A stretch of 64,000 nt of DNA from Catellatospora sp. TT07R-123. Lineage in GTDB: Bacteria > Actinomycetota > Actinomycetes > Mycobacteriales > Micromonosporaceae. Below are positions 43,268 through 60,137 of the stretch, piece after piece. The notes beneath the pieces were generated by a model. It was not told the DNA's origin. It searched no databases and worked only from the letters and a program-made list of their open reading frames with translations. The position numbers and the translations under genes are program-made. The stretch lies in NCBI RefSeq assembly GCF_018327705.1, contig NZ_BNEM01000002.1, positions 248,001 through 312,000 on the forward strand. The letters are read 5' to 3'. The stretch's first letter is position 1. Every line of letters begins with the position of its first letter.

Positions 43268-43462
43268 GCGGAACCTGTCCTCCTCGGGGCGCGCGGAAGC
43301 GCACCGATCCCCACCGGTCCGGTGTGGTCGGTTTATCAGCAATGAAAGGGGGGTGCAGCTGACTAGGTGCAGGTGGTCGATCGAGTTACCGCACGCAGCA
43401 CCGATGCCACGCTCCGGCCGCCTCCGCCAGGTGGCGGCGCGGTCCGGCTCGACCACGGAATG

Positions 43463-43711: not shown

Positions 43712-44713
43712 TCAGCCGCGCAGGGTCGGCAGGACGCGGCGGCCCAGCAGGTCGACGCCGCGCATCGGGCTCAGCCCATGCGGGGTGCCGAACTCGATCC
43801 GGGTCACCCCCGCCGCGAACAGCGCCTCGGCCTGGGCGGCGACCTGGTGCGGGGTGCCGGAGAACGCGAACAGGTCGAGCAGGTCGCCGCCGATCAGCGC
43901 GCCCGCCGCGACGTGCTCGCCGCGCCCGACGTGCGCCTGGACCCGGGCCAGCAGCTCGGGATCGATCTCGACCGTCGGGTCGAGATCGGCGACCACGGCC
44001 AGGTACATGGCGACCTCGGTGCGCGCCAGGCTCCGGGCGGCGGCGCCGTCCTCGTCGACGACCGTGACGGCGCCGAGGGTCAGCCCCACCTCCGACGGCT
44101 TGCGCCCGGCGGCGGTCGCGGCCGCGTCGAGCCAGCCCCGCATGGTCTTGCCCATCCCCGGGTTGGCCGAGCCGCCGACCTTGACCTCGTCGGCGACGGC
44201 CGCGGCCAGCTCGGCGGTGCGCTGCCCCCAGGTGCCGACCAGCAGCGGCACCCGGGGCCGGTGCGGGGTGTAGCGCAGGGCCGTACCCGGGGCGATGGTC
44301 AGCTCCTTGCCGCTGTAACCGGACGGGTCCTGGGCGAGCAGCAGGTTGACCACGTCGACGGTCTCGCGCAGCCGGCGCAGCGGCCGGGCCTGCGCCACGC
44401 CGACCTGGTCCAGCCAGGTGCCCCGGGCCAGGCCGAGGTAGGCGCGGCCGCCGGAGGCGAGATCGAGTGCCGCGGCCTGGCCCGCGATCTCGGCCGGATG
44501 CATCGTGTACGGGTTGAGGCACGCCGGCCCGAGCGTGATCCGGCTGGTGTGCTGCGCCGCCACGAGCAGCGGGAAGATGGGCGGCTGGTACATCAGGTCG
44601 CCGAAGACCGACAGGGTGTCGAAGCCGTGCCGTTCGGCGAGCTGGGCGATGGCGGCGTACTCGGCGGCGGTCTTGTCGGACTGCACGCCGAGTCCGATGA
44701 GGCGCTGGGTCAC
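43712..44713 (-). CDS. LLM-class F420-dependent oxidoreductase
   Basis: 333 residues starting at a GTG that overlaps the upstream stop (GTGA). The luciferase-like TIM-barrel shows GLGVQSDKTAAEYAAIAQLAERHGFD, ITLGPACLNPYTMHP and GGRAYLGLARGTWL, typical of actinobacterial F420-dependent enzymes such as methylene-tetrahydromethanopterin-reductase-like proteins. They reduce or oxidise alcohols, imines or double bonds. As the last gene of the peptide operon it may process a product of the imported substrate. Exact reaction unknown. Confidence 0.85.
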   Translation of the reverse strand: MTQRLIGLGVQSDKTAAEYAAIAQLAERHGFDTLSVFGDLMYQPPIFPLLVAAQHTSRITLGPACLNPYTMHPAEIAGQAAALDLASGGRAYLGLARGTWLDQVGVAQARPLRRLRETVDVVNLLLAQDPSGYSGKELTIAPGTALRYTPHRPRVPLLVGTWGQRTAELAAAVADEVKVGGSANPGMGKTMRGWLDAAATAAGRKPSEVGLTLGAVTVVDEDGAAARSLARTEVAMYLAVVADLDPTVEIDPELLARVQAHVGRGEHVAAGALIGGDLLDLFAFSGTPHQVAAQAEALFAAGVTRIEFGTPHGLSPMRGVDLLGRRVLPTLRG

Positions 44714-45033
44714 GTGAGCTCTTCCGTGGGGATGGTGCGGCGGCGGGTGCGCTCGATGCGCATGATCAGCCGCTCGTCGGGGTCGGGGCAGGCGACGTGG
44801 CAGTCGGTCTCCAGCCAGTCGCCGGGCGGCAGCGGCCGCTGCTTGGCGGGCAGCAGCGGCATGCACGCGGCCAGGGCGTACAGGCAGAAGTGGCCGCCGG
44901 GGGGCGTGGACAGCCGGTTGGACTCGGTCAGGTCGATGTAGTCGCCGACCTTCAGGCCGCACACGGAGCGGCCCTCGATGCGCTCGACGACGACGCGCAG
45001 GTCGTACAGGTCGGTGACGGGTTCGTCGGTCAT
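44710..45033 (-). CDS. TIGR04076-family protein
   Basis: 107 residues overlapping both neighbours by 4 bp. The pattern LRVVVERIEGRSVCGLKVGDYIDL, then HFCLYALAACMPLLPAKQR and ETDCHVACPDPDERLIMRIER matches TIGR04076 (DUF2204-like) proteins, small cysteine-containing proteins of unknown function. Four Cys residues could bind metal. The name is from pattern memory. Confidence 0.7.
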   Translation of the reverse strand: MTDEPVTDLYDLRVVVERIEGRSVCGLKVGDYIDLTESNRLSTPPGGHFCLYALAACMPLLPAKQRPLPPGDWLETDCHVACPDPDERLIMRIERTRRRTIPTEELT

Positions 45034-45413
45034 GACAGGGCCTCCGCGTGGTGGTGCACGATCCGCCAGCCGGTCTCGTCGCGGCGCAGCACGTCGGTGA
45101 CCCGGAAGACGTCGTCGCGGCCGCCGTCGGCGTAGCGGGCGCGCAGCAGGTAGCGGGCCACGCCGGTCCCGTCCCAGGCCTCGGTGAGCAGTTCCTCGGG
45201 GCTGACGGTGACCGAGCCGCGGGCGGGGGCGCCGGTGCGGGCGGCGGCGCGGCGGTCGCGCAGGTCGTCCAGGGCGGGCAGGCCGTGCAGCAGGGCGGGG
45301 GCGTCCGATTCCCAGATGGTCAGGTCGGGGTGCAGGTGGGCGTCGAACCCGGGGCGGTCGCCCAGGGACCGGTACATCGCGGTGATGACCGCGGCGATGT
45401 CAGGGGTGGTCAC
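45030..45413 (-). CDS. NTF2-like (DUF4440/SnoaL) protein
   Basis: 127 residues from a GTG, 3 nt after the stop of the DUF885 gene. The cone fold is clear: DIAAVITAMYRSLGDRPGFDAHLHPDLTIWES, then DVFRVTDVLRRDETGWRIVHHHAE. NTF2-like proteins are isomerases, dehydratases or binding domains; here it may work on the same intermediate as its operon neighbours. Confidence 0.8.
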   Translation of the reverse strand: MTTPDIAAVITAMYRSLGDRPGFDAHLHPDLTIWESDAPALLHGLPALDDLRDRRAAARTGAPARGSVTVSPEELLTEAWDGTGVARYLLRARYADGGRDDVFRVTDVLRRDETGWRIVHHHAEALS

Positions 45414-45416
45414 GGA

Positions 45417-47084
45417 TCAGTCCTCGGGGTGCGGAGCGGGGTGGAGGGCGGTGAGGGTGGCGCGCAGCGGGTCCAGGCCCATCGGGCCCAGCCGCAGCGC
45501 GTCGGCGTGGAACCGCTTGCGGTCGAACGCGGCGCCGGCGCGGGTCTCGGCGTCGCGGCGGGCCTGGGCCCACAGCCGGGCCCCGGCCTTGAACGCCAGC
45601 GCCTGGCCGGGCCAGCCCAGGTAGCGGTCCACTTCGAAGCGGGCGGTGGCGCGGTCGAGTCCGGCCACGGTGGACAGGAAGTCGACGGCCAGTTCGGGGG
45701 TCCAGCGGTCGGCGTCGGTGAAGCCGTTGCCGGCGGGGATGGAGGCGTCCAGGTGCAGTCCCATGTCGATGACGATGCGGGCGGCGCGCCAGATCTGCCC
45801 GCAGAGCATGCCGAGGCGTTCGGCGGGCCCGCGGTAGAGGCCGAGCTCGTCGGCCAGGCGCTCGGCGTAGTGCGCCCAGCCTTCGGCGTACCCGTGGACG
45901 TGGCAGAGGTGGCGCTGCCACGGGTGCAGCGAATCGGTGGTCATGGTGACGGCGAACTGGAGGTGGTGGCCGGGCAGGCCCTCGTGGAAGAGGGTGCCGA
46001 CGTGGCTCCATACCGGGATCTCGGGCTGGCCGCCGGGCACCGCCCACCAGATGGCGCCGGGGCGGGTCAGGGTGGCGTCGGGCGGGGTGTAGTACATGAC
46101 GCCGGAGGCGGCGGGGCTGATCCGGCACTGCACCCGGCGGGTCCGGGCGGGGATGTCGAAGTGGGTGCCGTCGAGGGCGTCGGTGACCTGCTCGACGCGT
46201 TCGTTGAGCCACTGCTCCAGGGCCGGTCCGGTGGTCACGCGCCACGCCGGGTCGGCGTCGAGGGCGGCCATGGCGGCGGCGGTGTCGGGGTGGCCGAGTT
46301 CGGCGGCGACCTGCCGCATCTCGTCGGCGGTGCGGCGCAGCTCGTCCCAGCCGTAGGCGTACAGCTCGTCCAGGTCGACCTGGGCGCCGAGGAAGCTGCG
46401 GGAGGTGACGGCGTACAGGTCGCGGCCGACGCCGTCGACGGTCCCGGCGCGGGGGGCGAGTTCGGCGCGCAGGAACTCGACGAACCGGCCGGTCGCGGCG
46501 ACGGCCTGGTCAGCGCCTGCGGCGAGCCGGTCGTGGCAGCCGCCGCCGGGGTGGGCGGCGACGAGCCTGCCGTAGAAGTCGTCGGTGGTGATCCAGGCGG
46601 TGGCCTGGTCGGCGACGGCGAGGATCTGGCGGCGGGCGACGAGGTGGCCCCGGTCTGCGGCCTCGCGCAGGGTCGCGGCGTATGCGTCCAGGGCCCCGCC
46701 GAGCGCCTCCAGGTGCTCGGCGACGACGGTCCAGTCGTCCTCGGTGTCGCGCGGCAGCTGGTCGAACACCTGGCGGGTCAGGTGCACGGGGGTGGCCAGC
46801 GGCGCGAGCAGCCGGGTGGTGAACCCGGCGTCGTACAGGGCGAGGTCGCTTTCGAGCCGGTCGACCAGGGCGGCCTGGAGCGCGTATTCGGCGGTGGTGG
46901 CGGCGGTGGCGTTGCGCGCCGCGGCCAGAGTGGTCCGGTCCAGGTCCGCACGGGCGGCGAACCCGGCCGGGGAGAGGTCGCCGAACCGCAGCGGCAGCGG
47001 GCGGCCCACGACGTCGGCGGCGTCGGGGTCGGTCGCGGCGAGCGCGGCCAGGTAGCCGTCGGCGACCTCGGTGATCGTGGTCAT
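45417..47084 (-). CDS. DUF885-family metallopeptidase-like protein
   Basis: 555 residues, ATG overlapping the amidohydrolase stop. DUF885 features include LFHEGLPGHHLQFA (HExxxGH zinc site), HGYAEGWAHYAERLADELGLY and a C-terminal YLGWPGQALAFKAGARL. The family is related to gluzincin-type carboxypeptidases and dipeptidases. There is no signal peptide, so it should cleave imported peptides in the cytoplasm. Confidence 0.85.
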   Translation of the reverse strand: MTTITEVADGYLAALAATDPDAADVVGRPLPLRFGDLSPAGFAARADLDRTTLAAARNATAATTAEYALQAALVDRLESDLALYDAGFTTRLLAPLATPVHLTRQVFDQLPRDTEDDWTVVAEHLEALGGALDAYAATLREAADRGHLVARRQILAVADQATAWITTDDFYGRLVAAHPGGGCHDRLAAGADQAVAATGRFVEFLRAELAPRAGTVDGVGRDLYAVTSRSFLGAQVDLDELYAYGWDELRRTADEMRQVAAELGHPDTAAAMAALDADPAWRVTTGPALEQWLNERVEQVTDALDGTHFDIPARTRRVQCRISPAASGVMYYTPPDATLTRPGAIWWAVPGGQPEIPVWSHVGTLFHEGLPGHHLQFAVTMTTDSLHPWQRHLCHVHGYAEGWAHYAERLADELGLYRGPAERLGMLCGQIWRAARIVIDMGLHLDASIPAGNGFTDADRWTPELAVDFLSTVAGLDRATARFEVDRYLGWPGQALAFKAGARLWAQARRDAETRAGAAFDRKRFHADALRLGPMGLDPLRATLTALHPAPHPED

Positions 47085-48322
47085 CGGGCGAACCTCCGGG
47101 TCGCGTTCGTGTCGTCGCGGTACACGACGCCACCCTTCATGACCAGGTGCAGGGTGCGCAGCGCGGCGATGTCGCGGGTCGGGTCGTCGCGCAGCACGAT
47201 CAGGTCGGCGTGTTTGCCCGCCTCGACGGTGCCGAGCCGGTCGTCGGCGCCGAGCCACTGCGCGGGCCGTACGGTGGCGGACTTGAGCGCGTCGGCGACG
47301 GTCATCCCGGCGTCGACCATGAACTCCAGCTCGCGGACGGTGGCGCTGGTCTCGTCGTAGCCCGCGTGCGGCGGCATGTCGCTGCCCAGCGCGATCGGGA
47401 CGCCGTTGCGGATGGCCAGTTGCAGGCTCTCCCAGTGCCGGGGTCCGGCGCCCAGGGCCCGGTCCATGAGCCAGCCGGGCACGCCGGAGTCGCGGAAGAA
47501 CTGCTCGCAGCGGCTGACGACGATGGTCGGCACGTACCAGACGCCGCGCTGGGCCATGAGCTTGGTGACGTCGTCGGTGAGCTCGTAGCCGTGCTCGACG
47601 CAGTCCAGGCCCAGCTCGACGGCGCGGCGGACGGAGTCGGCCGGTCCGGCGTGGGCGGTGACCTTGCGGCCCCAGTCGTGGGCGACCTGGATGACGGCGG
47701 CCATCTCGTCGTCGAGCAGCTGCGGGGTGTCGATGGCCTCGTGCTGCCCGGCGATGCCGCCGGAGATGCACACCTTGATCAGGTCGGCGCCGGCGCGGAT
47801 CTGCTGGCGGGTGAGCTTGCGGAAGCCGTCGGCGCCGTCGGCTTCGAGGGCGTCGGCGTCCCAGCCGTGGCCGCCGGTGCAGCACAGCGCGTGCCCGGCG
47901 GTGAAGATGCGGGGCCCGTCGACGGCGCCCTTGTCGATGGCCTTGCGCAGCGCGAAGTCGGCGTAGCGGCTCTCCCCCACCAGCCGGGCGGTGGTGACGC
48001 CCGCGTGCAGGGTGCGCCGGGCCGAGTCGGCCATGAGCAGCACGAGTTCGGCCTGGTCGGAGCGGTGCACCTCGTCGCCGAAGTGGCCGGGCAGGCCGAG
48101 CGACAGGTGGACGTGCATGTTGGTCAGGCCGGGCATGACGTACCCGCCGCCGAGGTCGACGACCGTGCGGCCGGGTGCCTCGGCCAGGACGTCGTCGACG
48201 GGCCCGACGGCCCGGATCATGCCGTCGGGGTCGACCCAGACGCCGTGGTCGGTGAGGACTGTGTCGCTGACGGCGTCGTAGACGGAGCAGTTGACGAGCA
48301 CCTGCTCGACAGGGCGGAACAT
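47081..48322 (-). CDS. Amidohydrolase, Xaa-Pro/Xaa dipeptidase-like
   Basis: 413 residues. The metal site is complete: HVHLSLG (HxH), a probable carbamylated Lys in GADLIKVCISGG, VTAHAGPADS, CVEHGYEL and the catalytic Asp in ALGSDMPPHAG. The C-terminal KHADLIVLRDDPTRDI is typical. This subgroup (imidazolonepropionase-like fold) includes prolidase-type and Xaa-Arg dipeptidases. The overlap with the DUF885 gene and an upstream peptide importer support a dipeptidase role, inferred from context. Confidence 0.85.
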   Translation of the reverse strand: MFRPVEQVLVNCSVYDAVSDTVLTDHGVWVDPDGMIRAVGPVDDVLAEAPGRTVVDLGGGYVMPGLTNMHVHLSLGLPGHFGDEVHRSDQAELVLLMADSARRTLHAGVTTARLVGESRYADFALRKAIDKGAVDGPRIFTAGHALCCTGGHGWDADALEADGADGFRKLTRQQIRAGADLIKVCISGGIAGQHEAIDTPQLLDDEMAAVIQVAHDWGRKVTAHAGPADSVRRAVELGLDCVEHGYELTDDVTKLMAQRGVWYVPTIVVSRCEQFFRDSGVPGWLMDRALGAGPRHWESLQLAIRNGVPIALGSDMPPHAGYDETSATVRELEFMVDAGMTVADALKSATVRPAQWLGADDRLGTVEAGKHADLIVLRDDPTRDIAALRTLHLVMKGGVVYRDDTNATRRFAR

Positions 48323-48331
48323 GCTGCCTCC

Positions 48332-49288
48332 TTACAGGTGGGCGGGCTGGGGCTGGAGCTGGTGCAGCCAGCAGGCGACGGCGGCCGACGGTCCGGTCGC
48401 GACGGTGGGCGGGGCTTCGGCGCAGCGGTCGAAGGCGTGCGGGCAGCGCGGGGCGAACCGGCATCCGGCCGGGGCGTTGGCCGGGTCGGGGACCTCACCG
48501 GCCAGGGTCGACGGGAGCACGGGCTGCGCGCTGATACGGGGCACAGCGTCGATCAGAGCACGGGTGTACGGGTGGAGCGGCTGTTCCCACAACCGGCGGG
48601 TCGGCGCCGTCTCGACGATCTTCCCGAGGTACATGACCGCGGTGACGTCGGCGATCTCGTGCACCAGGGCCAGGTCGTGCGAGATGAACAGCATCCCCAT
48701 GCCCAGTTCCCGGACCAGCCCGACCAGCAGGTTCACCACCTGCGCCTGCGACGAGGCGTCCAGGGCGGTGACCGGCTCGTCGGCGATGATCACGCGGGGC
48801 TGCGGGGCCAGGGCGCGGGCGATGGCCAGCCGCTGGCGCTGCCCGCCGGAGAACTGGTGCGGGTAGCGGCTCGCGGCGGTGGCGGGCATGCCGACCCGGT
48901 CGAGCAGTTCGGCGACGCGGGCGCGCCGGGCCGGGCCGGCGACTTCGGCCGGCACGCCGTCGAGCAGCTGGTCGCCGACGGCGCGGCGCGGGTTGAGCGA
49001 GGCGTACGGGTTCTGGAACACCATCTGCAACCCCACCTCGTCGGCGTTGCGGCGGCGCCAGCCCAGCGGGGTGACCGGGCGTCCGGCGTAGCGGACCTGC
49101 CCGGCGCTGGGCGGGGTGAGCCCGGCCGCGACCCGGGCCAGCGACGACTTGCCGCACCCGGACTCCCCGACCAGCCCCACGATCTGCCCCGGCGCCACGC
49201 TCAGGTCTACCCCGGCCACGGCCCGAACGGGCGCCCGGCCGCGCGGCTTGTGCTCGACGTGTACGGCGTCGATCTCCAGCAGCGTCAC
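48332..49288 (-). CDS. Oligopeptide ABC transporter ATPase (DppF/OppF type)
   Basis: 318 residues from a GTG overlapping the neighbouring ATPase gene. Walker [24 protein letters not shown], signature SGGQRQR and Walker B VIIADEPVTALD are followed by the C-terminal oligopeptide domain with cysteine motif CRFAPRCPHAFDRC. It pairs with the DppD-type ATPase next to it. Confidence 0.92.
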   Translation of the reverse strand: MTLLEIDAVHVEHKPRGRAPVRAVAGVDLSVAPGQIVGLVGESGCGKSSLARVAAGLTPPSAGQVRYAGRPVTPLGWRRRNADEVGLQMVFQNPYASLNPRRAVGDQLLDGVPAEVAGPARRARVAELLDRVGMPATAASRYPHQFSGGQRQRLAIARALAPQPRVIIADEPVTALDASSQAQVVNLLVGLVRELGMGMLFISHDLALVHEIADVTAVMYLGKIVETAPTRRLWEQPLHPYTRALIDAVPRISAQPVLPSTLAGEVPDPANAPAGCRFAPRCPHAFDRCAEAPPTVATGPSAAVACWLHQLQPQPAHL

Positions 49289-50262
49289 GCGGCCACCTCC
49301 AGCTCGGTACGGATCACGCAGGCCGACGTGCGGTCGGGGCCTGCCGGGTGCAGGGGCGGCACGCCGCTGCGGCACTCGTCGCGCACGTGGGCGCAGCGGG
49401 GGCTGAACGCGCAGCCGGGCGGCAGCTCGCCGGGCGCGGGCGGGCTGCCCGGGATCGGGGTGAGCGCCACGCCGGTCTGGCCGCCGTGCGGCCGGGCGCC
49501 CAGCAGCGCGGCCGTGTACGGGTGCCGGGGCTCGGTGAGCAGCGCTCCCGTGGGCCCGGCCTCGACGACGCGTCCGGCGTAGAACACGTAGCTGCGGGCG
49601 GTCAGGGCGCTGAGCACGCCCAGGTCGTGGGTGATGAACGCGACGGCCAGGCCGGTCTCGCGGCGCAGCCGGTCCAGCAGCGCCAGGATGCCGGCCTGGA
49701 CGGTGACGTCCAGCGCCGTCGTGGGCTCGTCGGCGATGAGCAGCCGGGGCTGGGCGGCCAGTGCGCTGGCGATCGCGACGCGCTGGCGCATGCCGCCGGA
49801 GAACTGGTGCGGGTAGGCGTGCAGGGCGCGTTCGGGGTCGGGCAGGCGCACCTGGTCGAGCAGGTCGACGGCGCGGCGCTCGGCGGCCTTGCGGCCCATG
49901 CGCAAGTGGATGCGCATGTGCTCGGTGAGCTGGGTGCCGACGGTGAGCATGGGGTGCAGGGCGGCGGTGGGGTCCTGGAACACCATCGCGATGCCGCGGC
50001 CGCGTACCCGCTGCCAGCCCTTGCGGTCCAGGGTGAGCAGCTCGTCGCCGTCGAAACGGGCCGAGCCGGACACCTTCGCGCCGGGCGGGAGCAGCCCGAG
50101 GACGGTCTGGGCGGTCATGCTCTTGCCGCAGCCGCTCTCCCCCGCGATGCCGACGAGCTCGCCCTCCCCCACGGTGAGGGAGACGTCGTGCAGGATCGGC
50201 AGGGGTCCGCGGGGTCCGGGCAGGGCCACGGCGAGGCGGTCGATGTCGAGGAGTGCGCCCAT
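49285..50262 (-). CDS. Oligopeptide ABC transporter ATPase (DppD/OppD type)
   Basis: 325 residues. Walker [10 protein letters not shown], signature SGGMRQR and Walker [13 protein letters not shown] are present, with the C-terminal [14 protein letters not shown] motif typical of DppD. It starts 3 bp after the permease stop and overlaps the second ATPase by 4 bp. Confidence 0.92.
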
Positions 50263-50264
50263 CG

Positions 50265-51170
50265 TCAGCGTCCGTTCATGTAGCGGGGGTCGAGGCGGTC
50301 GCGCAGCGCGTCGCCGAGGACGTTGAAGGCCAGCACCACGGTGAGGATGGCCAGGCCCGGGAAGACGCTGACCCACCACATGGACAGGTCCTGGGCGCCC
50401 AGCGCGACCATCGAGCCCCATTCGGCGGCGGGCGGCCGCGGGCCGAGGCCGAGGAACGACAGGGCGGCCAGCAGCAGTACGGCGTTGCCGAGTTCGAGGG
50501 TGGCCAGCACGATGGCGGGGCCGACGCTGTTGGGCAGCACGTCGCGGCGCAGGGTGGTGATCGGGCCGACGCCGAGCAGCCGGGAGGCGCTGAGGTAGTC
50601 CTCGCCGCGGATGGTGAGCACGGCGCTGCGGATGACCCGGGCGTACACCGGCCAGGAGACGATGACCAGGGCCAGGATCGCGTTGCCGGTGCTGGGCCCG
50701 AACGCGGCGGTGACGGCCATGGCGAGGATGATCTGCGGGAACGCGAACACCAGGTCGGTCAGCCGCATCACGGCCTCGTCCAGGAAGCGGCCGACGTATC
50801 CGGCGACCAGCCCGAGCAGGCCGCCGAGCAGCAGCGCGAGCGCGACGATGGCCAGGGCGAGCGGGATGGACAGGCGGGCGCCGTAGACGACTCGGCTGAA
50901 CACGTCGCGGCCCAGGGAGTCGGTGCCGAACCAGTGGGCGCCGCCGGGCGGCTGGTAGGTGTCGGCGCTCTGCGCGATGGGGTCGTGCGGGGCGATCAGC
51001 GGCGCGGCCAGGGCGATCAGCAGCCAGGCGGCGAGGATCGCGAGGGCGGCGACGGTGACCGGCTGACGCCAGATCGGGCGGCCGGCGGTGGCGCCGCGTA
51101 CCCGGCGCAGCCAGCGGCGGCGGTTCAGGGGCTTGGCGGCCTTGGGGTCGGTGTGGGCGAGGCTGGTCAT
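50265..51170 (-). CDS. Dipeptide/oligopeptide ABC transporter permease (DppC type)
   Basis: 301 residues with an N-terminal OppC domain (IAPHDPIAQ, HWFGTDSLGRDVFSRVVYG), five to six membrane helices and EAA motif ASRLLGVGPITTLRRDVLPN. Overlaps the DppB gene by 4 bp. Confidence 0.92.
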   Translation of the reverse strand: MTSLAHTDPKAAKPLNRRRWLRRVRGATAGRPIWRQPVTVAALAILAAWLLIALAAPLIAPHDPIAQSADTYQPPGGAHWFGTDSLGRDVFSRVVYGARLSIPLALAIVALALLLGGLLGLVAGYVGRFLDEAVMRLTDLVFAFPQIILAMAVTAAFGPSTGNAILALVIVSWPVYARVIRSAVLTIRGEDYLSASRLLGVGPITTLRRDVLPNSVGPAIVLATLELGNAVLLLAALSFLGLGPRPPAAEWGSMVALGAQDLSMWWVSVFPGLAILTVVLAFNVLGDALRDRLDPRYMNGR

Positions 51171-52270
51171 TGCAACCGGATCCTGGGGTCGATGAGTCCG
51201 TACAGCAGGTCGACGGCGAGGTTGACCAGCGTGTAGACCAGGGCCACGAACAGGCTGGCGCCGAGGATCGCGGGCAGGTCCAGCGCGCTGGCGCTGCGGT
51301 AGGCGTACTGGCCCAGGCCCGGCCAGCCGAAGATGTTCTCGACCAGCACCGTGCCCGACAGCAGCGACGCGAAGGCCAGGCCGGAGACGGTGATGACGGG
51401 GACGAGGCCGGCGCGCAGCAGGTGGCGGCGCAGCACGAGGCTGGTGGGCAGGCCCTTGGCGTACGCGGCCTTGATGTAGTCGTGCTGGAGCACCTCCAGC
51501 ATCGAGGAGCGCACGAACCGGACCAGGATCGCCACGGTGAGGCAGGTCAGCACCAGCACCGGCAGGACGAGGTGCTGGGCGGCGTCCCAGGCCAGGTCCC
51601 ACTGCCCGGACAGGGCGGCGTCGACGGTGTACATGCCGGTGACGGTGTCGGGCGGGGTGAAGCCCGGGGACAGGCGTCCGCCGCTGGGTGACAGTCCGAG
51701 CTGGTAGAAGAACAGGTACAGCACGACCAGCGACAGCCAGAACGGCGGGGTGGACAGGCCGAGCAGGGCCCCGACGCGGATGAGCTGGTCGGTGATCCGG
51801 CCGTTGCGGACCGCGGCGAGCATGCCGATGCCGGTGCCGAGCAGCAGCGCCAGCAGCATGGTCGGGATGGCCAGTTCCATGGTGGCGGGCACGTAGTGCA
51901 GCAGGTCCTCGGCCACGGCGCGGCCGGTCTGCTGGGAGGTGCCGAGGTCGCCGGTGAGCAGGTGCTGGAGGTAGTGCCAGTACTGGAGGTATACGGGCTG
52001 GTCCAGGCCCCACTTGGCGCGGAACGCCGCGACGGCGGCCGGGTCGTTGAGGGCCTGGTCGGACAGGTTCGCGGTGACCGGGTCGCCGGGCACGACCTGG
52101 ACCAGCCCGAACGTCAGGACGGTGACGCCGAGCAGCAGCCCGGCGGTGATCACCAGCCGCTTGGCCAGGTACGCCAGCATGGGGTGCCGGTGGCTGAAGC
52201 GACGGCGGGGGCGGGGCCCGGGGGCGGCCGTGACGGCCGCTCCCGGGTTTTCCGTGGTGCTCGCGGTCAT
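51167..52270 (-). CDS. Dipeptide/oligopeptide ABC transporter permease (DppB type)
   Basis: 367 residues with six membrane helices, VVPGDPVTANL near the N-terminus and EAA motif AAYAKGLPTSLVLRRHLLRAGL. It carries a ~30-residue N-terminal Arg/Pro-rich cytoplasmic extension. The ATG overlaps the binding-protein stop (TAATG). Confidence 0.92.
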   Translation of the reverse strand: MTASTTENPGAAVTAAPGPRPRRRFSHRHPMLAYLAKRLVITAGLLLGVTVLTFGLVQVVPGDPVTANLSDQALNDPAAVAAFRAKWGLDQPVYLQYWHYLQHLLTGDLGTSQQTGRAVAEDLLHYVPATMELAIPTMLLALLLGTGIGMLAAVRNGRITDQLIRVGALLGLSTPPFWLSLVVLYLFFYQLGLSPSGGRLSPGFTPPDTVTGMYTVDAALSGQWDLAWDAAQHLVLPVLVLTCLTVAILVRFVRSSMLEVLQHDYIKAAYAKGLPTSLVLRRHLLRAGLVPVITVSGLAFASLLSGTVLVENIFGWPGLGQYAYRSASALDLPAILGASLFVALVYTLVNLAVDLLYGLIDPRIRLQ

Positions 52271-53877
52271 TACCTGGTACCGATCGCGGCGAGGTCGATC
52301 TGCCAGCCCGCCGGGGTGTACTCGACCCCGGTGAGGTCGGCGGTGGCGACGTTCATGCCGGAGTTGTTGGCGATCACGAGGTACGGCGAGTGCTGGTTCA
52401 TCAGCCGCTGCCAGTCCTTCATCGCCTCGGCGCGGGCGGCCGGGTCCAGGGTGGACACGACCTTCTGGCCTGCGGCGACGACGGCCGGGTCGGCCCGCTC
52501 GACGGTCCAGCCGGCACGCAGGGCGCTGCCGGCCCCGGGTGCCATGTTGTTGACCAGCGAGTCGGCGACCGGGTAGTTGAGGCTCTGCGGGCTGAAGCCC
52601 ATCGCCATCTTGCCGCTGCGCATCACGTCCAGGAACGAGGTCAGCGGCTGCGGGTTGAGCTCCAGGGTGATCCCGGCCTCGGCGGCGTCGCCCTGCACCT
52701 TGGTGGCGACCGTGCCGAGGTCGACGCCGCGGTAGGTGATCGTCGGGTAGGTGAACTTCACCGTCGGGTTGGTCAGCCCGGCCTCGGCCAGCAGCTGCTT
52801 GGCCAGGGTGATGTCGCGCTTGCCCTCCTCGCCCGCGGGCAGGGTGCCCGGGAACGCGGGGGCGACCAGTCCGGCGCCGGGGCCGGCGCCCTTGCCGTAC
52901 AGCGCCGCGACGCCCTGGTAGTCGATCGAGGCCCGCAGTGCCTGGCGGAACTTCGGGTTCGACGTCACCGGCGACACGGCCGGGTCGGCGTTGAGGATGA
53001 GGTAGTAGATGGTGTCCTGGACGCCCGAGGTCAGCAGGGTGTCGGGCAGCCCGTCGAGCAGCTTGCCGGAGATGTCCAGCGACACCTCGGCGGCGGTGGC
53101 CCGGGACATGGTCAGCTTCTGGGTCTGCACGTCCATGTTGCGCAGCACCACCCGGTGGAACTTGGGCTTGGTGCCCCAGTAGTTCGGGTTGGCCTCCAGC
53201 ACGACCTGCGAGGACGGGTCGTAGGACTTCAGGACGTACGGGCCGCTGCCGGCGGAGCTCTTGTCGAAGAACTGCTGGGCGGTGTCGGCCGAGGCCGCGT
53301 CGGCGCCGTCGGTGGCGCCGTTGGCCTTGGCGACCTTCGAGTTGACGACGCCGGTGGCCGACATGGCCAGCACGACCGGGACGTTGGGGTTGGGCTGGGC
53401 GGAGGTGACCACGACGGTCTTGTCGTCGGTCTTGCTCGCGGTCAGGTCGGTGACCATGACCGCGGGGCTGGCCTTGACGTTCTTCAGCCGGTTGAGCGAG
53501 AAGACGACGTCGTCGGCGGTCAGCGGGGTGCCGTCGGAGAACTTCACGCCGTCGCGGAGCTTGAACGTGAACGTCTTGGCGTCGGCGGAGGCCTCGTACG
53601 ACTCGGCGAGCTCCGGCACGGGCTTGCTGACGTCGGAGCCCTTGAACGTGAGCAGGGTGTCGTAGAGGGCGTGGGTGGCGGTGACGCCGGTCGCCTCGTA
53701 CACCCGGCCCGGGTCGAGGGTCTTGATGACGAACGAGGTGTCGACCGTCAGGGTGTCGCTGCCGCCCGCGGCGTTGCCGCCGCCGCTGCCGGCGGTGCAG
53801 GCGGCGGTGGCGGAGGCGGTGGTGATCGCGGCGAGCGCGAGCGCTGCGGCGCGGAGTCGGCGGGGGTTCACCGACAT
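52270..53877 (-). CDS. Peptide-binding lipoprotein (SBP_bac_5)
   Basis: 535 residues. The lipoprotein signal ends in TAAC (about Cys26). Family motifs include DTSFVIKTLDPGRVYEATG, FKLRDGVKFSDGTPLTADDVVFSLNRL and PNYWG. This is the DppA/OppA-like receptor of the importer. It heads the ten-gene leftward operon, directly facing the XRE-cupin regulator. Confidence 0.92.
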   Translation of the reverse strand: MSVNPRRLRAAALALAAITTASATAACTAGSGGGNAAGGSDTLTVDTSFVIKTLDPGRVYEATGVTATHALYDTLLTFKGSDVSKPVPELAESYEASADAKTFTFKLRDGVKFSDGTPLTADDVVFSLNRLKNVKASPAVMVTDLTASKTDDKTVVVTSAQPNPNVPVVLAMSATGVVNSKVAKANGATDGADAASADTAQQFFDKSSAGSGPYVLKSYDPSSQVVLEANPNYWGTKPKFHRVVLRNMDVQTQKLTMSRATAAEVSLDISGKLLDGLPDTLLTSGVQDTIYYLILNADPAVSPVTSNPKFRQALRASIDYQGVAALYGKGAGPGAGLVAPAFPGTLPAGEEGKRDITLAKQLLAEAGLTNPTVKFTYPTITYRGVDLGTVATKVQGDAAEAGITLELNPQPLTSFLDVMRSGKMAMGFSPQSLNYPVADSLVNNMAPGAGSALRAGWTVERADPAVVAAGQKVVSTLDPAARAEAMKDWQRLMNQHSPYLVIANNSGMNVATADLTGVEYTPAGWQIDLAAIGTR

Positions 53878-54105
53878 GCTGGTCCTACCTTCCTTCGGGC
53901 CGGTCCACGGTGAGCACGGGAGGATGGCTCTTGCCGAGGACCGGCGATTCCAGGGCCGGCATGCGGCCGGCGGCGCGCCTTCGGGTGTACGGAGGGAGCC
54001 GGGTTTCCCCCGGCGTCGACCGCACGTGTTTGATGTGGACGGACGCGGGTGCGCCCGGTGCTGTGCAGTAAGGGCTGGTTATGAGGGGACTCATTACCGC
54101 TCTGG

Positions 54106-54138
54106 TTGACCACACTAAACACGCTCGTGTAGTTTAGT
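54106..54138 (+). promoter_or_regulatory. Promoter and nested operator of the XRE-cupin operon
   Basis: -35 TTGACC (54106-54111), 18 bp, -10 TAGTTT (54130-54135). ACTAAAC (54114-54120) and GTTTAGT (54132-54138) form a 25-bp dyad with ACAC/GTGT nested inside, and a second dyad AAGTT/AACTT lies at 54144-54159. The operator covers spacer and -10, so repression by the adjacent regulator is likely. The region 53878-54105 shows no gene. Confidence 0.65.
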
Positions 54139-54176
54139 CAAACAAGTTCAGCGAAACTTATCTAGTGGAGGCCCCG

Positions 54177-54713
54177 ATGCTCGGCGACCGGCTCCGTGAG
54201 CTGCGCCAGCAGCACGGCTATACGCTGCGCCAGCTGGCCGCCGAAGCCGACGTGTCTTCGGCTCTGCTTAGCCAGATTGAAAACGGGGCGACCGACCCGA
54301 GCCTGTCGACCCTGCGCAAACTCGCCCGGGTGTTCGACACCTCGATCGCGATGCTGTTCAGCGAACCCGACGCCCCGGCGGTGTACATCAGCCGCCCCGG
54401 CGCCCGCAGCCGCCTGGCGGCACCGCCCGGCCAGATCTCCTACGACCGGCTCACCCCCGGCCGCGGCGACCTGGAGGTGCTCCAGGCCGACCTCGCCCCC
54501 GGTGACGCCAGCTCCGCCCAGCCCTGGTCGCACCCGTCCACCGAGTGCGCCATCGTGCTGGCCGGCACGGTCACCGCCGAGATCGGCGGCAGCACGTACC
54601 AGCTGGCCACCGGCGAGTCCGTCACGTTCGACTCCCGGCTGCCGCACCGCTACCTCAACACCAGCGACGAACCGGCCCGCCTGGTCATCGCGGTGACCCC
54701 GCCGACCCCCTAA
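54177..54713 (+). CDS. XRE-cupin transcription regulator
   Basis: 178 residues, ATG with GGAG 7 nt upstream (a GTG 12 bp earlier is possible). An N-terminal helix-turn-helix (about 5-60, LRQLAAEADVSSALLSQIENG) is joined to a cupin_2 domain (about 100-172, TECAIVLAGTVTAEIGG, ATGESVTFDSRLPHRY). Such HipB-cupin proteins regulate amino-acid, polyamine and opine catabolism, binding a small ligand in the cupin. It probably controls both divergent operons. Confidence 0.9.
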   Translation: MLGDRLRELRQQHGYTLRQLAAEADVSSALLSQIENGATDPSLSTLRKLARVFDTSIAMLFSEPDAPAVYISRPGARSRLAAPPGQISYDRLTPGRGDLEVLQADLAPGDASSAQPWSHPSTECAIVLAGTVTAEIGGSTYQLATGESVTFDSRLPHRYLNTSDEPARLVIAVTPPTP

Positions 54714-54787
54714 CCGCCCCACCGCACCGCCGCACAGCCCGCCCCCACCGGCGGGCCGATGCCCCCTGCGCCACGGAAGGACCCGCC

Positions 54788-55705
54788 ATGGACCGCGACA
54801 GCGTCGACTGGCACGGCTACATCCCCGCCGTCACCACCCCGTTCACCGCCACCGGCGACCTCGACCTCGCCGCCTGGGCCGCCCAGCTCGACTGGCTGGC
54901 CGACCAGCAGATGCACGGCATCGTCGTCGCGGGCACCACCGGCGAGTGGTTCAGCCTCACTGAACACGAGCGCGCCGACCTGTTCACCGCCGCCGCGAAG
55001 CAGGTCGGCGACCGGATGACCGTGCTCGGCGGCTGCAACGCCTACACCGCCGCCGAGGCGATCCGCCACGCCCGCGCCGCCCAGGCCGCCGGGCTGCACG
55101 GCATCCTGCTCACCCCGCCTCCGTACGTCGTGCCCAGCCGCGAGGAGATCCTCGCCTTCTACCGCGAGGTCTCCGAGGCCGTCGACCTCCCGCTGTGCGT
55201 CTACAACTGGCCCCGCGGCACCGGCGTCGACCTGGACACCGACCTGCTGTCCCGGCTCGCCGACCTGCCCACCGTCGTCGCGGTCAAGAACTCCACCCCC
55301 GACTTCGGCGGCTTCGTCCGGGGCCTGGTCGCGCTGCGGCACCGGGTCCGCTACTTCGGCATCCCCACCAGCGAGACCGGCATCGAGCTGCTCACCCGTA
55401 TCGGCGGCGACGGCCTCATGGGTGCCGGAGCCGTCCTCGGCGCCGACCACCCCGGCTTCTTCCGGGCCGTCGCCGACGGCGACCTCGACCGGGCCCGCCG
55501 CCTCGGCGCCCGCGACCGGGTCCTGATGGAGACCTGGTTCGGCGCCGACTACGGCGCCAGGTTCGCCAGCGCCCAGGCGATCCTCAAGCACGCCCTGACG
55601 CTGCGCGGCGTCCCGGCCGGGCACGTCCGCCGCCCCCTGCTGCCGCTGACCGCCGACCAGCAGGCCCGGGTCCGGGCCACACTGGCCGAGCTCGACCTGA
55701 TCTGA
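54788..55705 (+). CDS. DapA-family lyase/deaminase
   Basis: 305 residues, GGAAGG before the ATG. Class I aldolase-type TIM barrel with GTTGEWFSL, catalytic Tyr in CVYNWPRGTG and Schiff-base Lys in VVAVKNSTPD. The position equivalent to the substrate-binding Arg138 of dihydrodipicolinate synthase is shifted (WPRGTG), so lysine biosynthesis is unlikely. The family also contains pyrroline-4-hydroxy-2-carboxylate deaminases of hydroxyproline breakdown, sugar-acid dehydratases and aldolases. Next to a D-hydroxyproline-type dehydrogenase, the deaminase is the leading guess. Confidence 0.85.
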   Translation: MDRDSVDWHGYIPAVTTPFTATGDLDLAAWAAQLDWLADQQMHGIVVAGTTGEWFSLTEHERADLFTAAAKQVGDRMTVLGGCNAYTAAEAIRHARAAQAAGLHGILLTPPPYVVPSREEILAFYREVSEAVDLPLCVYNWPRGTGVDLDTDLLSRLADLPTVVAVKNSTPDFGGFVRGLVALRHRVRYFGIPTSETGIELLTRIGGDGLMGAGAVLGADHPGFFRAVADGDLDRARRLGARDRVLMETWFGADYGARFASAQAILKHALTLRGVPAGHVRRPLLPLTADQQARVRATLAELDLI

Positions 55706-56874
55706 TGGCCCGCTACGACACCGCGGTCGTCGGCGGCGGGCTGCTCGGCTGCGCCGTCGCCTGGCACCTGGCCAAAGCCGGCACCCGTGTCCTGCTCGTC
55801 GAGAAGGACCAGCTCAACCGGCACGCCTCCGGCCAGAACGCGGGCAGCCTGCACTTCCAGCTCGAATACCGCATGGTCGAGCACGGCGACGACGCCGCCC
55901 GGCTGGCCGCCCGCGCGCTGCCGCTGCACCTGGACGCCATGCGCACCTGGGCCGGGCTCGAAACCGCGCTCGGGCTGCCGTGCGGCGTCGCCCAGCGCGG
56001 CGGGCTGATGCTCGCCGAGACCCCCGCGCAGGTCGCCGCCCTGGACCGCAAAGCCGCCCTGGAACGCGAGTACGGCCTCGACGTCGACGTGCTGGAAGGC
56101 ACCCGGCTGCGGGAGCTGGCGCCATACCTCGCCGACAGTGTCCGGGCCGCCGCCCACCTGCCCGGCGAGGGCAAGGCCAACCCGCGGCTGGTCACCCCGG
56201 CGTTCGCTCGCGCCGCCGCCGACCACGGCGCCGAGCTGCGCACCGGCCACCGCGTCACCGCGCTGCACCGCGACGGCGGGCGCTGGCACCTGACCGGCTC
56301 CGACGGCCGCACCGACACCGCCGACACCGTCGTGCTGGCCGCCGGGGTGTGGACCACCGAACTGGCCGCGATGGCCGACGTCCGGCTGCCCGCGTTCCCG
56401 GTCGGGCTGACCATGAGCGCCACCGCCCGCACCACCGCCCTGCTGCCGCACCTGATCCAGCACGTCGGGCGGAGGCTGTCGATGAAGCAGACCGCCGAGG
56501 GCAACATCCTGCTCGGCGGCGGCTGGCCCGCCAAACTGGTCACCCGCGGCGGCCGCGTCGACCTCGACCGCAACCCGGAGCTGCGCTACGAGTCGCTGAC
56601 CGGCAACGCCGACGCGGCCCGCGTCGTGCCCGCCGTCATGGGCCTGCCCGTCATCCGCTCGTGGACGGGCATGACCACGCTGACCCCCGACCAGCTGCCG
56701 CTGCTCGGGGCGGTGCCCCGCCGCCCCGGCCTGTACACCGCCACCGGCGGCTCGGCGTTCACGCTGGGGCCGACCTACGCCCGGCTGCTGGCCGCGACCG
56801 TGCTCGGCACCGAGCCCGACCTGCCGCTGGACGACTACTCCCCCGCCCGGTTTGGAGCGCTGAACTTTGTCTGA
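55705..56874 (+). CDS. FAD-dependent amino/imino-acid dehydrogenase, beta subunit (DAO fold)
   Basis: 389 residues, ATG overlapping the upstream stop (TGATG). The N-terminus ARYDTAVVGGGLLGCAVAWHLA binds FAD and the C-terminus PLLGAVPRRPGLYTATGG completes the D-amino-acid-oxidase/SoxB-like fold. No signal peptide. The gene triplet FAD/DAO, small [2Fe-2S] and large FAD/NAD subunit is that of heteromeric sarcosine, opine, cyanide-forming glycine, and D-hydroxyproline dehydrogenases. Confidence 0.88.
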   Translation: MARYDTAVVGGGLLGCAVAWHLAKAGTRVLLVEKDQLNRHASGQNAGSLHFQLEYRMVEHGDDAARLAARALPLHLDAMRTWAGLETALGLPCGVAQRGGLMLAETPAQVAALDRKAALEREYGLDVDVLEGTRLRELAPYLADSVRAAAHLPGEGKANPRLVTPAFARAAADHGAELRTGHRVTALHRDGGRWHLTGSDGRTDTADTVVLAAGVWTTELAAMADVRLPAFPVGLTMSATARTTALLPHLIQHVGRRLSMKQTAEGNILLGGGWPAKLVTRGGRVDLDRNPELRYESLTGNADAARVVPAVMGLPVIRSWTGMTTLTPDQLPLLGAVPRRPGLYTATGGSAFTLGPTYARLLAATVLGTEPDLPLDDYSPARFGALNFV

Positions 56875-57154
56875 GACCGCCGTCCGCACCGCTCTGGACC
56901 GCCCCGGCCCCGTCACCATCGACGTCGACGGCGAGCCGGTCACCGCGTACCCCGGGGAATCCCTGGCCACCGCGCTGCTGGCCGCCGGGCGCCGCGCCAC
57001 CGGCGCCACCGCCTCGGGCGCGGCGCGGGCGCCGTACTGCAACATGGGCGCCTGCTTCGAATGCGTCGTCACCGTCGACGGCCAGCCCTTCCAGCGCTCC
57101 TGCCAGGTCCGGGTCCGGCCCGGCCTGACCGTGCGGACCGGGGCGCCGCGATGA
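56867..57154 (+). CDS. Small [2Fe-2S] subunit of the dehydrogenase
   Basis: 95 residues from a TTG (a rare start) that overlaps the beta-subunit gene by 8 bp; GGAG lies ~9 nt upstream. The ferredoxin-like ligands are in YCNMGACFECVVTVDG, followed by CQVRVRPG. It matches HcnA/gamma-subunit proteins that relay electrons between the two flavin subunits. Confidence 0.85.
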   Translation: MSETAVRTALDRPGPVTIDVDGEPVTAYPGESLATALLAAGRRATGATASGAARAPYCNMGACFECVVTVDGQPFQRSCQVRVRPGLTVRTGAPR

Positions 57155-58605
57155 GCGGGCAGCCCGACGTCGTCGTGGTCGGCGCGGGCCCGGCCGGGCT
57201 GGCCGCAGCCGCGACGCTCGGCCGCCACGGCGCGCGGGTGCTCGTGGTCGACGAGCAGCAGCGGCCCGGCGGGCAGATCTACCGGCAGCCGCCGGTCGGG
57301 TTCACCCGCTCCGGCAGGCAGGCCGGGGCCGGGCGGGCGCTGCTGGCCGAAGCCGCGGCGGCGCCGAACGTGGACTGGCTGCCCGACGCCACCGCGTGGG
57401 GCGTCTTCGGCACCCGCGCCGGGCTCGACGACTACGCCGGACCGGCCCCGGCCCTCGGCCGCCTCCGCATCGGCGTGCACACCCCCGACGGCGGGCGGGT
57501 GCTGGAACCGGCAGCGCTGCTGCTCACGGCGGGCGCGTACGACCTGCCGGTCCCGTTCCCCGGCTGGACGCTGCCCGGCGTGCTCACCGCAGGCGGCGTC
57601 CAGGCCTTCGTGAAGGCACAGGGGCTGCTGCCGGGACGCCGGTTCGTGCTGGCCGGCGGGCACCCGCTGCTGCTGGTCGTCGCCGCCCAGCTCGTCGCCG
57701 CCGGAGCCGCCGTCGCGGAGGTCGCCTTCAGCCAGCGGCCCCGTGCCCTGGTGCCGGGTCCGCGCGCCGTGCCCGCCGCGCTCGGCAACCTCGGCAAGCT
57801 GGCCGAGGGCGCCGCCGCGCTGCGCACCCTGCGGCGCGCCCGGGTGCCGGTCCGGTTCGGCACCGTGATCCGGTCCGCCGCCGGCGACGGCGCCCTCGAC
57901 ACCGTCATCCTGTCCAGGGTGGACGCGGCCGGGGCACCCGTGCCCGGCACCGAGCGGACCGTGGCGTGCGACGTGCTCGCGGTCGGGTACGGCTTCGTCC
58001 CGTCCACCGAGCTGGCCCGCCAGGCCGGGTGCGCGGTGGCGTGGCGGCACGCCGAGGGCGGCTGGGTCGTCGAGCACGACGACTGGCTGCGCACCAGCGT
58101 GCCCGGGGTCAGCGCCGCCGGGGAGCTGACCGGGGTCGCCGGCGCGGAGCAGGCCGAGGTGGAGGGGCGGCTGGCCGCGTACGGGACGCTCCAGGACCTC
58201 GGGCTGCTGGACCCCGCCCGCGCCGCGACCCTGTCCCGCCCGGTACGCAGGCTGCTGGCCCGGCGGCGGCGCTTCACCACCGCCGTGCTGAGCCGGTTCG
58301 CGCCCGACCCGGCGCTGCTCAGCGCGCTGGTCACCGACGACACGACACTGTGCCGGTGCGAGGAGGTCCGCGCCGGTGACATCCGCCGGGCGCTGACCGA
58401 GCACCCGCACCTGGGCACCGCCAACGCGGTCAAGCTGCTGACCCGCGCGGGCATGGGCCTGTGCCAGGGCCGCTCCTGCGCCCCCGGGGTCTGCCGCTTC
58501 GTCGCCGAGCAGACCGGGCGCACGCCCGAGCAGGTGGGCACCTTCACCGCCCAGGCGCCGGTCAAGCCGGTGCCGCTGGCGGCCCTGGCTGCCGACCGCC
58601 CGTGA
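57151..58605 (+). CDS. Large FAD/[2Fe-2S] subunit of the dehydrogenase (SoxA/HcnB-like)
   Basis: 484 residues starting in a 4-bp overlap with the previous gene. An N-terminal pyridine-nucleotide-disulfide-like fold (VVVVGAGPAGLAAAATL; GGQIYRQPP) is followed by a C-terminal BFD-like domain with CRCEEVRAGDI and GMGLCQGRSCAPG. This is the alpha subunit of heteromeric amino-acid dehydrogenases. It ends the rightward operon; the stop is 24 bp from that of a convergent gene. Confidence 0.88.
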   Translation: MSGQPDVVVVGAGPAGLAAAATLGRHGARVLVVDEQQRPGGQIYRQPPVGFTRSGRQAGAGRALLAEAAAAPNVDWLPDATAWGVFGTRAGLDDYAGPAPALGRLRIGVHTPDGGRVLEPAALLLTAGAYDLPVPFPGWTLPGVLTAGGVQAFVKAQGLLPGRRFVLAGGHPLLLVVAAQLVAAGAAVAEVAFSQRPRALVPGPRAVPAALGNLGKLAEGAAALRTLRRARVPVRFGTVIRSAAGDGALDTVILSRVDAAGAPVPGTERTVACDVLAVGYGFVPSTELARQAGCAVAWRHAEGGWVVEHDDWLRTSVPGVSAAGELTGVAGAEQAEVEGRLAAYGTLQDLGLLDPARAATLSRPVRRLLARRRRFTTAVLSRFAPDPALLSALVTDDTTLCRCEEVRAGDIRRALTEHPHLGTANAVKLLTRAGMGLCQGRSCAPGVCRFVAEQTGRTPEQVGTFTAQAPVKPVPLAALAADRP

Positions 58606-60041: not shown

Positions 60042-60048
60042 GAGCGAC

Positions 60049-60089: not shown

Positions 60090-60137
60090 AATATCCCCCG
60101 GGCCCGAGGCCCGCCGGAACGAGGAGCACACACCACC

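Follow-up and report, generated by a model that had tools for sequence, protein, structure and literature searches.

A 15-gene cluster in the soil actinobacterium Catellatospora sp. TT07R-123 most likely serves to take up short peptides, cleave them, and oxidize an unusual amino acid contained in them. It occupies positions 43712 to 58605 of the 64,000-nucleotide stretch analyzed here (the window; C2:248001-312000 of a 9.17-Mb, two-contig genome). Ten tightly spaced genes, A to J, read leftward and encode a luciferase-like (LLM) oxidoreductase (A), a TIGR04076 protein (B), a SnoaL/NTF2-like protein (C), a DUF885 peptidase (D), an amidohydrolase (E), and a peptide importer of the Opp/Dpp type (F to J). 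Five genes read rightward, for an XRE-cupin transcription factor (K), a DapA-superfamily lyase (L), and the three subunits of a flavin/[2Fe-2S] dehydrogenase (M, N, and O). The gene families and divergent arrangement given in a preliminary description of this DNA were borne out for all 15 genes by Pfam and NCBIfam matches and by intact catalytic motifs. The cluster is a real, conserved, and patchily distributed catabolic unit, made of known parts in an arrangement for which literature searches on the gene combination returned no description, as judged by title.

Conservation of the cluster in actinobacteria

A search for related loci with gene L returned 12 loci (loci are cited below by L and three digits and genomes by G and a number), of which L005, on a 3-kb contig, was left out of the neighborhood count. 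All 12 actinobacterial loci with sufficient flanking sequence have an Opp importer and an E homologue beside K-L-M-N-O; these are the window, L001 to L004, L006 to L010, L047 (an Embleya plasmid), and L065 (G918). The earlier proposal of a unit of import and degradation centered on an XRE-cupin regulator is supported, as are its parts, namely, peptide uptake, hydrolases of the peptidase type, and a dehydrogenase of the imino-acid type, and the unit is kept in relatives. The closest relative of L lies in L001, from Catellatospora sp. KI3 (92% identity). Gene order shifts between loci, with D-C and B-A acting as movable pairs; the order E-D-C-B-A of the window is E-B-A-D-C in Cellulomonas and Actinocatenispora, and in G918 thirteen genes lie on a single strand as J-I-H-G-F-E-D-C-K-L-M-N-O, where A and B were not seen. 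The Embleya homologue of E is merely 36 to 38% identical, and D was not seen in that locus. In the Streptomyces loci L009/L122, the Opp proteins are distant (24 to 50%), and a gene for an Xaa-Pro aminopeptidase-like M24 protein lies in the block (224 bits; cutoff, 465). The gene set recurs in several genera, apparently more often than expected by chance.

The family is rare. Alignment A1 at an E value of 1e-80 matched 2 of 398 Pseudomonadota genomes, one being that of L011. Within the class, 7 of 394 genomes matched, the window's own among them. Five of these seven matched at just 276 to 297 bits, and a second copy in G918 scored 326 bits. Orthologues in five cluster-bearing genomes scored 509 to 539 bits, with the next paralogue at 179.

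Separation from hydroxyproline catabolism

The L-hydroxyproline (L-Hyp) operon of Streptomyces coelicolor, SCO6289-6293, is described as encoding a DAO, a Fer2 protein, an alpha subunit, a DapA-like deaminase, and a PF05544 epimerase, and deletion of the epimerase abolishes growth on L-Hyp (PMC6608401). The protein types of L to O equal those of SCO6289-6292, and the set of DAO, [2Fe-2S], alpha, and DapA-family proteins is shared both with this HypR-associated operon and with the Pseudomonas lhp genes; the three-subunit FAD/[2Fe-2S] dehydrogenase of the L-Hyp pathway is thereby present. These likenesses speak for an alternative in which 4-hydroxyproline peptides would be imported and cut, M-N-O would directly oxidize a hydroxyproline isomer, L or D, with no epimerase involved, and L would deaminate the pyrroline product. 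So does the occurrence of a similar M24 Xaa-Pro aminopeptidase-like gene both in or near two loci of the hydroxyproline (Hyp) type, L110 and L116, and in the Streptomyces loci of the type described here. We nonetheless regard this alternative as improbable on the basis of four lines of evidence, comprising the epimerase, coexisting loci, protein trees, and active-site residues.

No match to the hydroxyproline 2-epimerase family PF05544 was found in the whole genome at an E value of 0.001, so that the absence of an epimerase noted earlier for the locus holds for the genome as well. A search with O of 346 genomes of the phylum (E value, 1e-30) matched 26, including the window's own; the PF05544 search covered 12 of the 25 others (11 of the same order or class, plus G338), the remaining 13 lying outside the class. 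The epimerase gene was located no more than 1.5 kb from the alpha-subunit gene in 11 of 11 other same-class genomes, and none was found in G338. Among 13 further cluster-bearing genomes, five gave no PF05544 match (three Catellatospora genomes, G349, and G918), two gave weak or partial matches (G347, 19 bits, below the cutoff; G348, 39 bits over positions 147-301), and six gave strong ones (G346, G350, G699, G1113, G1114, and G1115), in each case either on a different contig or at a distance of over 200 kb from the cluster. In G1113, G1114, and G1115, the epimerase gene lies in a locus with Hyp-type DAO, Fer2, alpha, and DapA genes. In G350 it lies beside a Hyp-type DapA gene only, in G699 it is beside a more distant DapA-type gene (36%), and in G346 no such neighbor was seen. 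Four cluster-bearing genomes carry a Hyp-type locus elsewhere, complete in three and limited to the DapA-type and epimerase genes in G350; these genomes thus keep both systems, or parts of the hydroxyproline one. Within the Hyp-type locus L110 of Micromonospora (positions 1373-8892), the M24 gene is situated between the dehydrogenase and epimerase genes.

Trees were built from 44 L-type and 45 M-type proteins, each with 19 rows of the present group, 10 (L) or 8 (M) Hyp-type rows, and 15 (L) or 18 (M) ungrouped rows. The present and Hyp-type rows split at 99/99 in the L tree and 100/99 in the M tree, where the Hyp-type label denotes an epimerase neighbor and the trees hold no proven hydroxyproline or opine enzyme. 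With the ungrouped rows included, the node of the present group stood at 99/99 (L) and 94/95 (M) and the Hyp-type node at 97/86 (L) and 100/99 (M). The active site of L follows the same division. All 19 rows of the present group have YNWP at the tyrosine, K-N-S or K-Q-S at the lysine, and GTTGEW or GTSGEW, as opposed to YNNP in 10 of 10 Hyp-type rows (and in several ungrouped ones) and GSLGEY with KEF in 9 of 10, the remaining row, L111, having GTCGEN and KES. YNWP also occurs in seven rows of the next groups (L066 to L071 and L074). In M, Thr324 is kept in 18 of 19 rows (Val in L072), and Arg occupies this position in 8 of 8 Hyp-type rows. The glycine oxidases 4ysh and 7cyx align the Arg of their GIRP/GLRP motif with Thr324, an Arg that we take to bind the substrate carboxylate, and the L-proline dehydrogenase 1y56_B has Tyr. 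Thr in place of Arg suggests that the substrate may be held differently.

These results led us to reject a hydroxyproline route as the principal interpretation, and the suggestion of hydroxyproline-peptide breakdown made in the preliminary description is not supported. The regulator differs as well, being of the XRE-cupin type here and of the GntR type in the known hydroxyproline system. That description had also listed alpha-ketoglutarate-semialdehyde dehydrogenase as missing; none is encoded among the locus genes, although no genome-wide search for it was made, and S. coelicolor is likewise described as lacking one near its L-Hyp operon (PMC6608401).

The lyase and the three-subunit dehydrogenase

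L (54788..55705, plus strand; PF00701) is a class I lyase of the DapA superfamily, in what we term the YNWP group. Lys167 and Tyr139 occupy the positions of the Schiff-base lysine and catalytic tyrosine, and we presume that they have these roles. A PDB profile search with the L alignment (E value, 1e-35) returned 24 sequences, all bearing dihydrodipicolinate-synthase-type names, with no relative hinting at another function. M (55705..56874, plus strand; PF01266, 219 bits) is the catalytic beta subunit, of the DAO-type FAD class; N (56867..57154, plus strand; PF13510, 91.8 bits), read from a TTG start, is the [2Fe-2S] gamma subunit with four cysteines; and O (57151..58605, plus strand; PF07992, PF04324, and PF17806) is the alpha subunit, a pyridine-nucleotide-type flavoprotein that also bears BFD-like [2Fe-2S] and sarcosine-oxidase A3 domains. 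Across a 27-row motif comparison, the first four scored cysteines of the O cluster were invariant where aligned, and the fifth position was variable. A genome search with O identified no second full-length homologue.

Dpp-type importers also carry opine-like ligands, and a second alternative is that the dehydrogenase cleaves an N-(carboxyalkyl) amino acid, with the Opp system importing opines or opine peptides. Flavin opine dehydrogenases are reported to have an alpha-beta-gamma architecture and an Arg-X-Trp motif in the beta subunit (PMC4575208). The cluster has this architecture in common with them, and M carries RSW at 318-320; the flavin/[2Fe-2S] multisubunit build and the Arg-X-Trp motif of beta are shared with archaeal L-proline dehydrogenase as well. 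Unlike in the opine and L-proline enzymes, the dehydrogenase is accompanied here by a DapA-type lyase, and the word dihydrodipicolinate is absent from the main text of PMC4575208, so that no DapA-type partner appears there under that name. An opine substrate is doubtful and ranks below the hydroxyproline alternative.

Less probable than either is a cyanide synthase or a general oxidation of glycine or sarcosine, with the lyase and peptidases incidental. Cyanide synthase does share the three-subunit assembly (PMC4575208), and M is distantly similar to glycine oxidase and dimethylglycine dehydrogenase. However, M does not have the Arg of the glycine oxidase motif, and no cyanide-synthase model was among the NCBIfam matches listed for M, N, and O (the best 25 for M and O). 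In addition, the L and M trees look alike by eye, suggesting that the lyase is not incidental.

Loci outside actinobacteria and the wider family

Six nonactinobacterial L-M-N-O loci were read, from Achromobacter (L011), Allobacillus (L012/L073), Bradyrhizobium elkanii (L044), two Novosphingobium (L045 and L046), and G699 (L072); five other plasmid matches (H4 to H6, H8, and H9) and one Embleya match (H2) were left out. The Allobacillus locus has a separate Opp importer of its own, together with three genes each for M24 and M20 proteins; one of the M20 proteins scores above the cutoff of a dipeptidase model, and the M24 matches to Xaa-Pro models fall below theirs. Beside the rightward core of the five Pseudomonadota loci read, neither an Opp gene nor an amidohydrolase gene was seen. 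Near L-M-N-O, four of them (L011, L045, L046, and L072) have an SSF transporter gene in place of Opp genes, so that a small molecule may be the substrate in these loci. VOC genes were found in L011, L044 (∼11 kb away), L046, and L072, the last of which also has a DUF885 gene. RidA proteins are imine deaminases, and the RidA (Ribonuc_L-PSP) family genes near the core in L011, L046, and L072 fit an imine intermediate.

Relatives beyond the group have other neighbors. The relative in L066 is located with a glycine-cleavage P-type protein and aminotransferases, and more distant relatives in L078 (Agrobacterium vitis) and L080 (Azospirillum brasilense) lie beside dihydropyrimidinase. Together with the hydantoinase/oxoprolinase genes of the loci below, these neighborhoods suggest that various N-substituted amino acids are handled across the wider family. 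In L067 (1-10309) and L074 (6770-17000), relatives of the YNWP-type lyase and three-subunit dehydrogenase stand beside hydantoinase/oxoprolinase A and B and Opp-type genes, forming a second unexplained catabolic cluster. L078 and L080 contain a long FAD oxidoreductase gene that spans alpha- and beta-like parts, with a DapA-type gene, an amino-acid ABC importer, and DUF3830.

The leftward operon

The importer is a full Opp/Dpp set by Pfam. It consists of a family-5 solute-binding protein (J, 52270..53877; PF00496, 248 bits), which is probably a lipoprotein given its lipobox-like ATAAC, two binding-protein-dependent permeases (I, OppB/DppB, 51167..52270, PF00528 and PF19300; H, OppC/DppC, 50265..51170, PF00528 and PF12911), and two oligo_HPY ATPases (G, OppD-like, 49285..50262; F, DppF/OppF-like, 48332..49288; both PF00005 and PF08352). 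All of these genes, like A to E, are on the minus strand. E (47081..48322; PF01979) is an amidohydrolase of what we take to be the COG1228 dipeptidase/carboxypeptidase/amide-hydrolase group, which includes Xaa-Pro dipeptidases, the Arg carboxypeptidase Cc2672, and ochratoxinase; it shares this family and the six metal ligands, which were present as HHKHHD in the window and in every other aligned row of the motif comparison. Unlike curated Xaa-Pro dipeptidases, E scores below their cutoff (NF051886, 269.3 bits; cutoff, 500). Its PDB matches are 9kov, 8ihq, 2qs8 (an Xaa-Pro dipeptidase), 3mtw (Arg carboxypeptidase), and 4c5y (ochratoxinase), the best solved relatives being other amidohydrolases; 8ihq and 9kov, which are closer to E than 4c5y, presumably act on ochratoxin. 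D (45417..47084; PF05960, 449 bits; PDB 3iuk, 3.6e-115) is a DUF885 putative zinc peptidase with an HEGLPGHH ... E motif. The motifs of E, D (HE...HH...E), and N (four Cys) were kept wherever the site was aligned, with two exceptions, in that the N segment of L045 stops before the last Cys and D of L006 is truncated by the locus end.

C (45030..45413; PF13474, 3.9e-07) is a SnoaL/NTF2-like protein. B (44710..45033) exceeds the cutoff of NCBIfam TIGR04076 (64 versus 33 bits), a family described as "potentially involved in redox reactions or iron cluster metabolism" (PMC8667426). A (43712..44713; PF00296, 3.3e-44; PDB matches 8qq8 and 8qpl) starts at GTG 44713, overlapping B. This LLM protein is closest to F420-dependent methylene-H4MPT reductase (Mer) yet far under that family's cutoffs (TIGR03555, 139.6 bits against 348.7; NF002619, 160.1 bits against 276).

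Gene starts were picked from frame, overlap, and upstream sequence, the longest open reading frames (ORFs) of A, D, F, G, H, L, M, and O starting farther upstream. Six of the nine leftward junctions from J to A overlap (five by 4 bp and I/J by 1 bp), and the others are gaps of 9 bp (E/F), 3 bp (C/D), and 2 bp (G/H). Rightward, K and L are separated by 74 bp, and the other three junctions overlap, L-M by 1 bp, N-O by 4 bp, and M-N by 8 bp provided that N starts at TTG 56867. The overlaps reported earlier are therefore present at most junctions, and this spacing suggests two polycistronic mRNAs. Just past A, an ABC importer, probably of the sulfate/thiosulfate type, reads leftward at 39585-43456 (binding protein, two permease ORFs, and ATPase); most relatives' stretches stop before the corresponding place. 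Adjoining O is a leftward 303-amino-acid ORF (58630-59541) with no Pfam or NCBIfam match and no tblastn match at 1e-5 in L001 to L012, followed by an MMPL-type transporter gene (59622-62264) whose true start is probably inside the ORF.

Leftward genes without the lyase

TIGR04076 genes are uncommon in the class, with matches in 9 of 296 genomes, and the eight genomes besides the window's own were read. All ten leftward genes (order E-B-A-D-C) occur with K in L137, L138, and L140; L134/L145 have a shuffled leftward set with K; L139/L144 have A-B-E with K; L133 has Opp genes, K, B, and A; L136 has only B-A; and L135 has only B. No L orthologue was found in G890, G942, G899, G831, G973, or G991 (best match, 145 bits, versus 276 for the weakest class relative). 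In six genomes, then, K and some or all of the leftward genes are present in the absence of L, which implies that these genes can perform their basic task without the rightward module. A and B were neighbors in 10 of 12 scorable loci (the window, L119, L007, L121, L133, and L136 to L140, and not L134 or L135), where L001 to L003 are cut at B and L004 stops before B. In trees built from 20 E rows and 21 K rows, loci that have L are intermixed with loci that lack it, with three and four label changes, respectively; starred branches force just two changes, two genomes appear twice, several forks are left open, and the branches of L133, L145, and L067 are long. This mixing suggests, with modest support, that the rightward module may have been repeatedly gained or lost.

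Strict co-conservation of the two operons, by which the preliminary description was to be judged, was rejected. The halves do occur together in all 12 actinobacterial loci read, but the six genomes above have leftward genes without L, and the five Pseudomonadota loci have the rightward core with no amidohydrolase or Opp gene seen.

The six genomes without L also bear on a third alternative, salvage of N-acyl amino acids or amide conjugates, in which E would be aminoacylase-like, the acyl half would pass to A, B, and C, and the rightward module would be an optional add-on. The stable A-B pair and the relationship of E to ochratoxinase, an amide-conjugate hydrolase, point the same way. However, Opp importers with DUF885 or M20/M24 peptidases indicate peptides, and in the 12 actinobacterial loci the rightward module is always with the leftward one. 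We consider such salvage unlikely, if the least so of the four alternatives.

Beside K-B-A in L133 (9551-14469) and L146 (G991) are genes for tryptophan dioxygenase, kynureninase, an FAD monooxygenase, and an aldehyde dehydrogenase, then acetaldehyde dehydrogenase and aldolase genes. A link to the kynurenine pathway was dropped, as an opposite-strand gene intervenes and the arrangement was seen in no other locus read.

The regulator and a candidate operator

K (54177..54713, plus strand; HTH_3 and Cupin_2) combines an XRE helix-turn-helix with a cupin domain and adjoins transport and catabolic genes, as expected for a local XRE-cupin repressor unit; its match to the PuuR model is 82.8 bits (cutoff, 211). 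In Pseudomonas aeruginosa, XRE-cupin factors are reported to repress neighboring metabolic genes, and PsdR directly controls dppA3 (a dipeptide-binding protein) and mdpA (a metallodipeptidase), the latter induced by X-Pro dipeptides (PMC7901475). The PsdR unit has a palindromic operator (PMC7901475), for which the dyad described below is a candidate counterpart. The present cluster resembles the PsdR unit in having an XRE-cupin gene beside peptide uptake and peptidase-type genes and differs in adding a complete Opp importer, other hydrolase families, the three-subunit dehydrogenase, the DapA-type lyase, and the LLM/TIGR04076 pair.

The putative operator, identified from an alignment of five loci, is a dyad between the divergent operons (54104..54144), GGTTGACCA ... 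TAGTCAAACA, with inner arms ACTAAAC/GTTTAGT. A dyad of the TGTTTGACCA and TAGTCAAACA type is present in eight loci (the window and L001 to L007, from Catellatospora, Micromonospora, and Actinocatenispora). Its spacing is equal in the five loci scored by script (L003 to L007); the window, L001, and L002 have less perfect arms. Inspection by eye showed a related but altered sequence in L009 and L141 to L144 and no such dyad in the more distant L008, L010 to L012, L047, L065, L133, and L134. A scan of the divergent region for sigma-70 promoters and terminators detected none, and no motif string matching the dyad was found in the accessible text of an XRE motif paper (PMC12565409).

Proposed function

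Our proposal is that K represses two divergent operons through one shared putative operator. F to J would bring in short peptides or N-acyl amino acids, and D and E would hydrolyze them inside the cell, freeing a residue. M-N-O would then oxidize the freed secondary-amine (cyclic or N-alkyl) amino acid at its C-N bond, handing electrons to the respiratory chain, and L, as a Schiff-base lyase, would cleave or deaminate the resulting imine or 2-oxo acid. Processing of a product would fall to C and to A with its partner B. The amino acid would be one other than trans-4-hydroxy-L-proline handled by the epimerase route. The "other N-substituted peptides" of the preliminary description are the leading candidate. 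A secondary-amine residue is favored as the substrate because of the class of the dehydrogenase, the M24 genes in the Streptomyces and Allobacillus loci, and the PsdR analogy. The absence from M of the Arg seen in Hyp-type rows and glycine oxidases, which is missing also from L-proline dehydrogenase 1y56_B, counts for the proposal as a whole. N-acyl amino acids are possible substrates, since E falls below the Xaa-Pro dipeptidase cutoff and is related to ochratoxinase-like amide-conjugate hydrolases.

Several of the observations above weigh against this proposal, comprising the score of E and the nature of its best solved relatives, the six genomes in which K and leftward genes lack the company of L, the absence of the dyad in distant loci, the SSF transporter in Pseudomonadota, and the varied neighborhoods, and hence substrates, of the wider family. 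On balance, we put at about even the chance that the cluster is an XRE-cupin-controlled local catabolic unit, resembling PsdR-DppA3-MdpA, for short peptides or N-acyl amino acids, whose dehydrogenase and lyase process a freed N-substituted amino acid. The more specific view is tentative and falls somewhat short of even, namely, that the cluster encodes a pathway, undescribed in the papers listed by our searches, for a secondary-amine amino acid that is carried in peptides and is distinct from 4-hydroxyproline, through a YNWP class I lyase and its own three-subunit dehydrogenase, together with a new two-protein LLM (possibly F420-dependent)/TIGR04076 enzyme.

The pairing of a three-subunit dehydrogenase with a DapA-type protein is known from hydroxyproline catabolism and is easily read as such. 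Two sequence marks, YNWP in the lyase and the lack of Arg at the Hyp-type position of the beta subunit, combined with the epimerase test, set this group apart and could aid annotation. For TIGR04076, an unexplained family, the LLM protein provides a stable partner, and peptide catabolism provides a context open to experiment.

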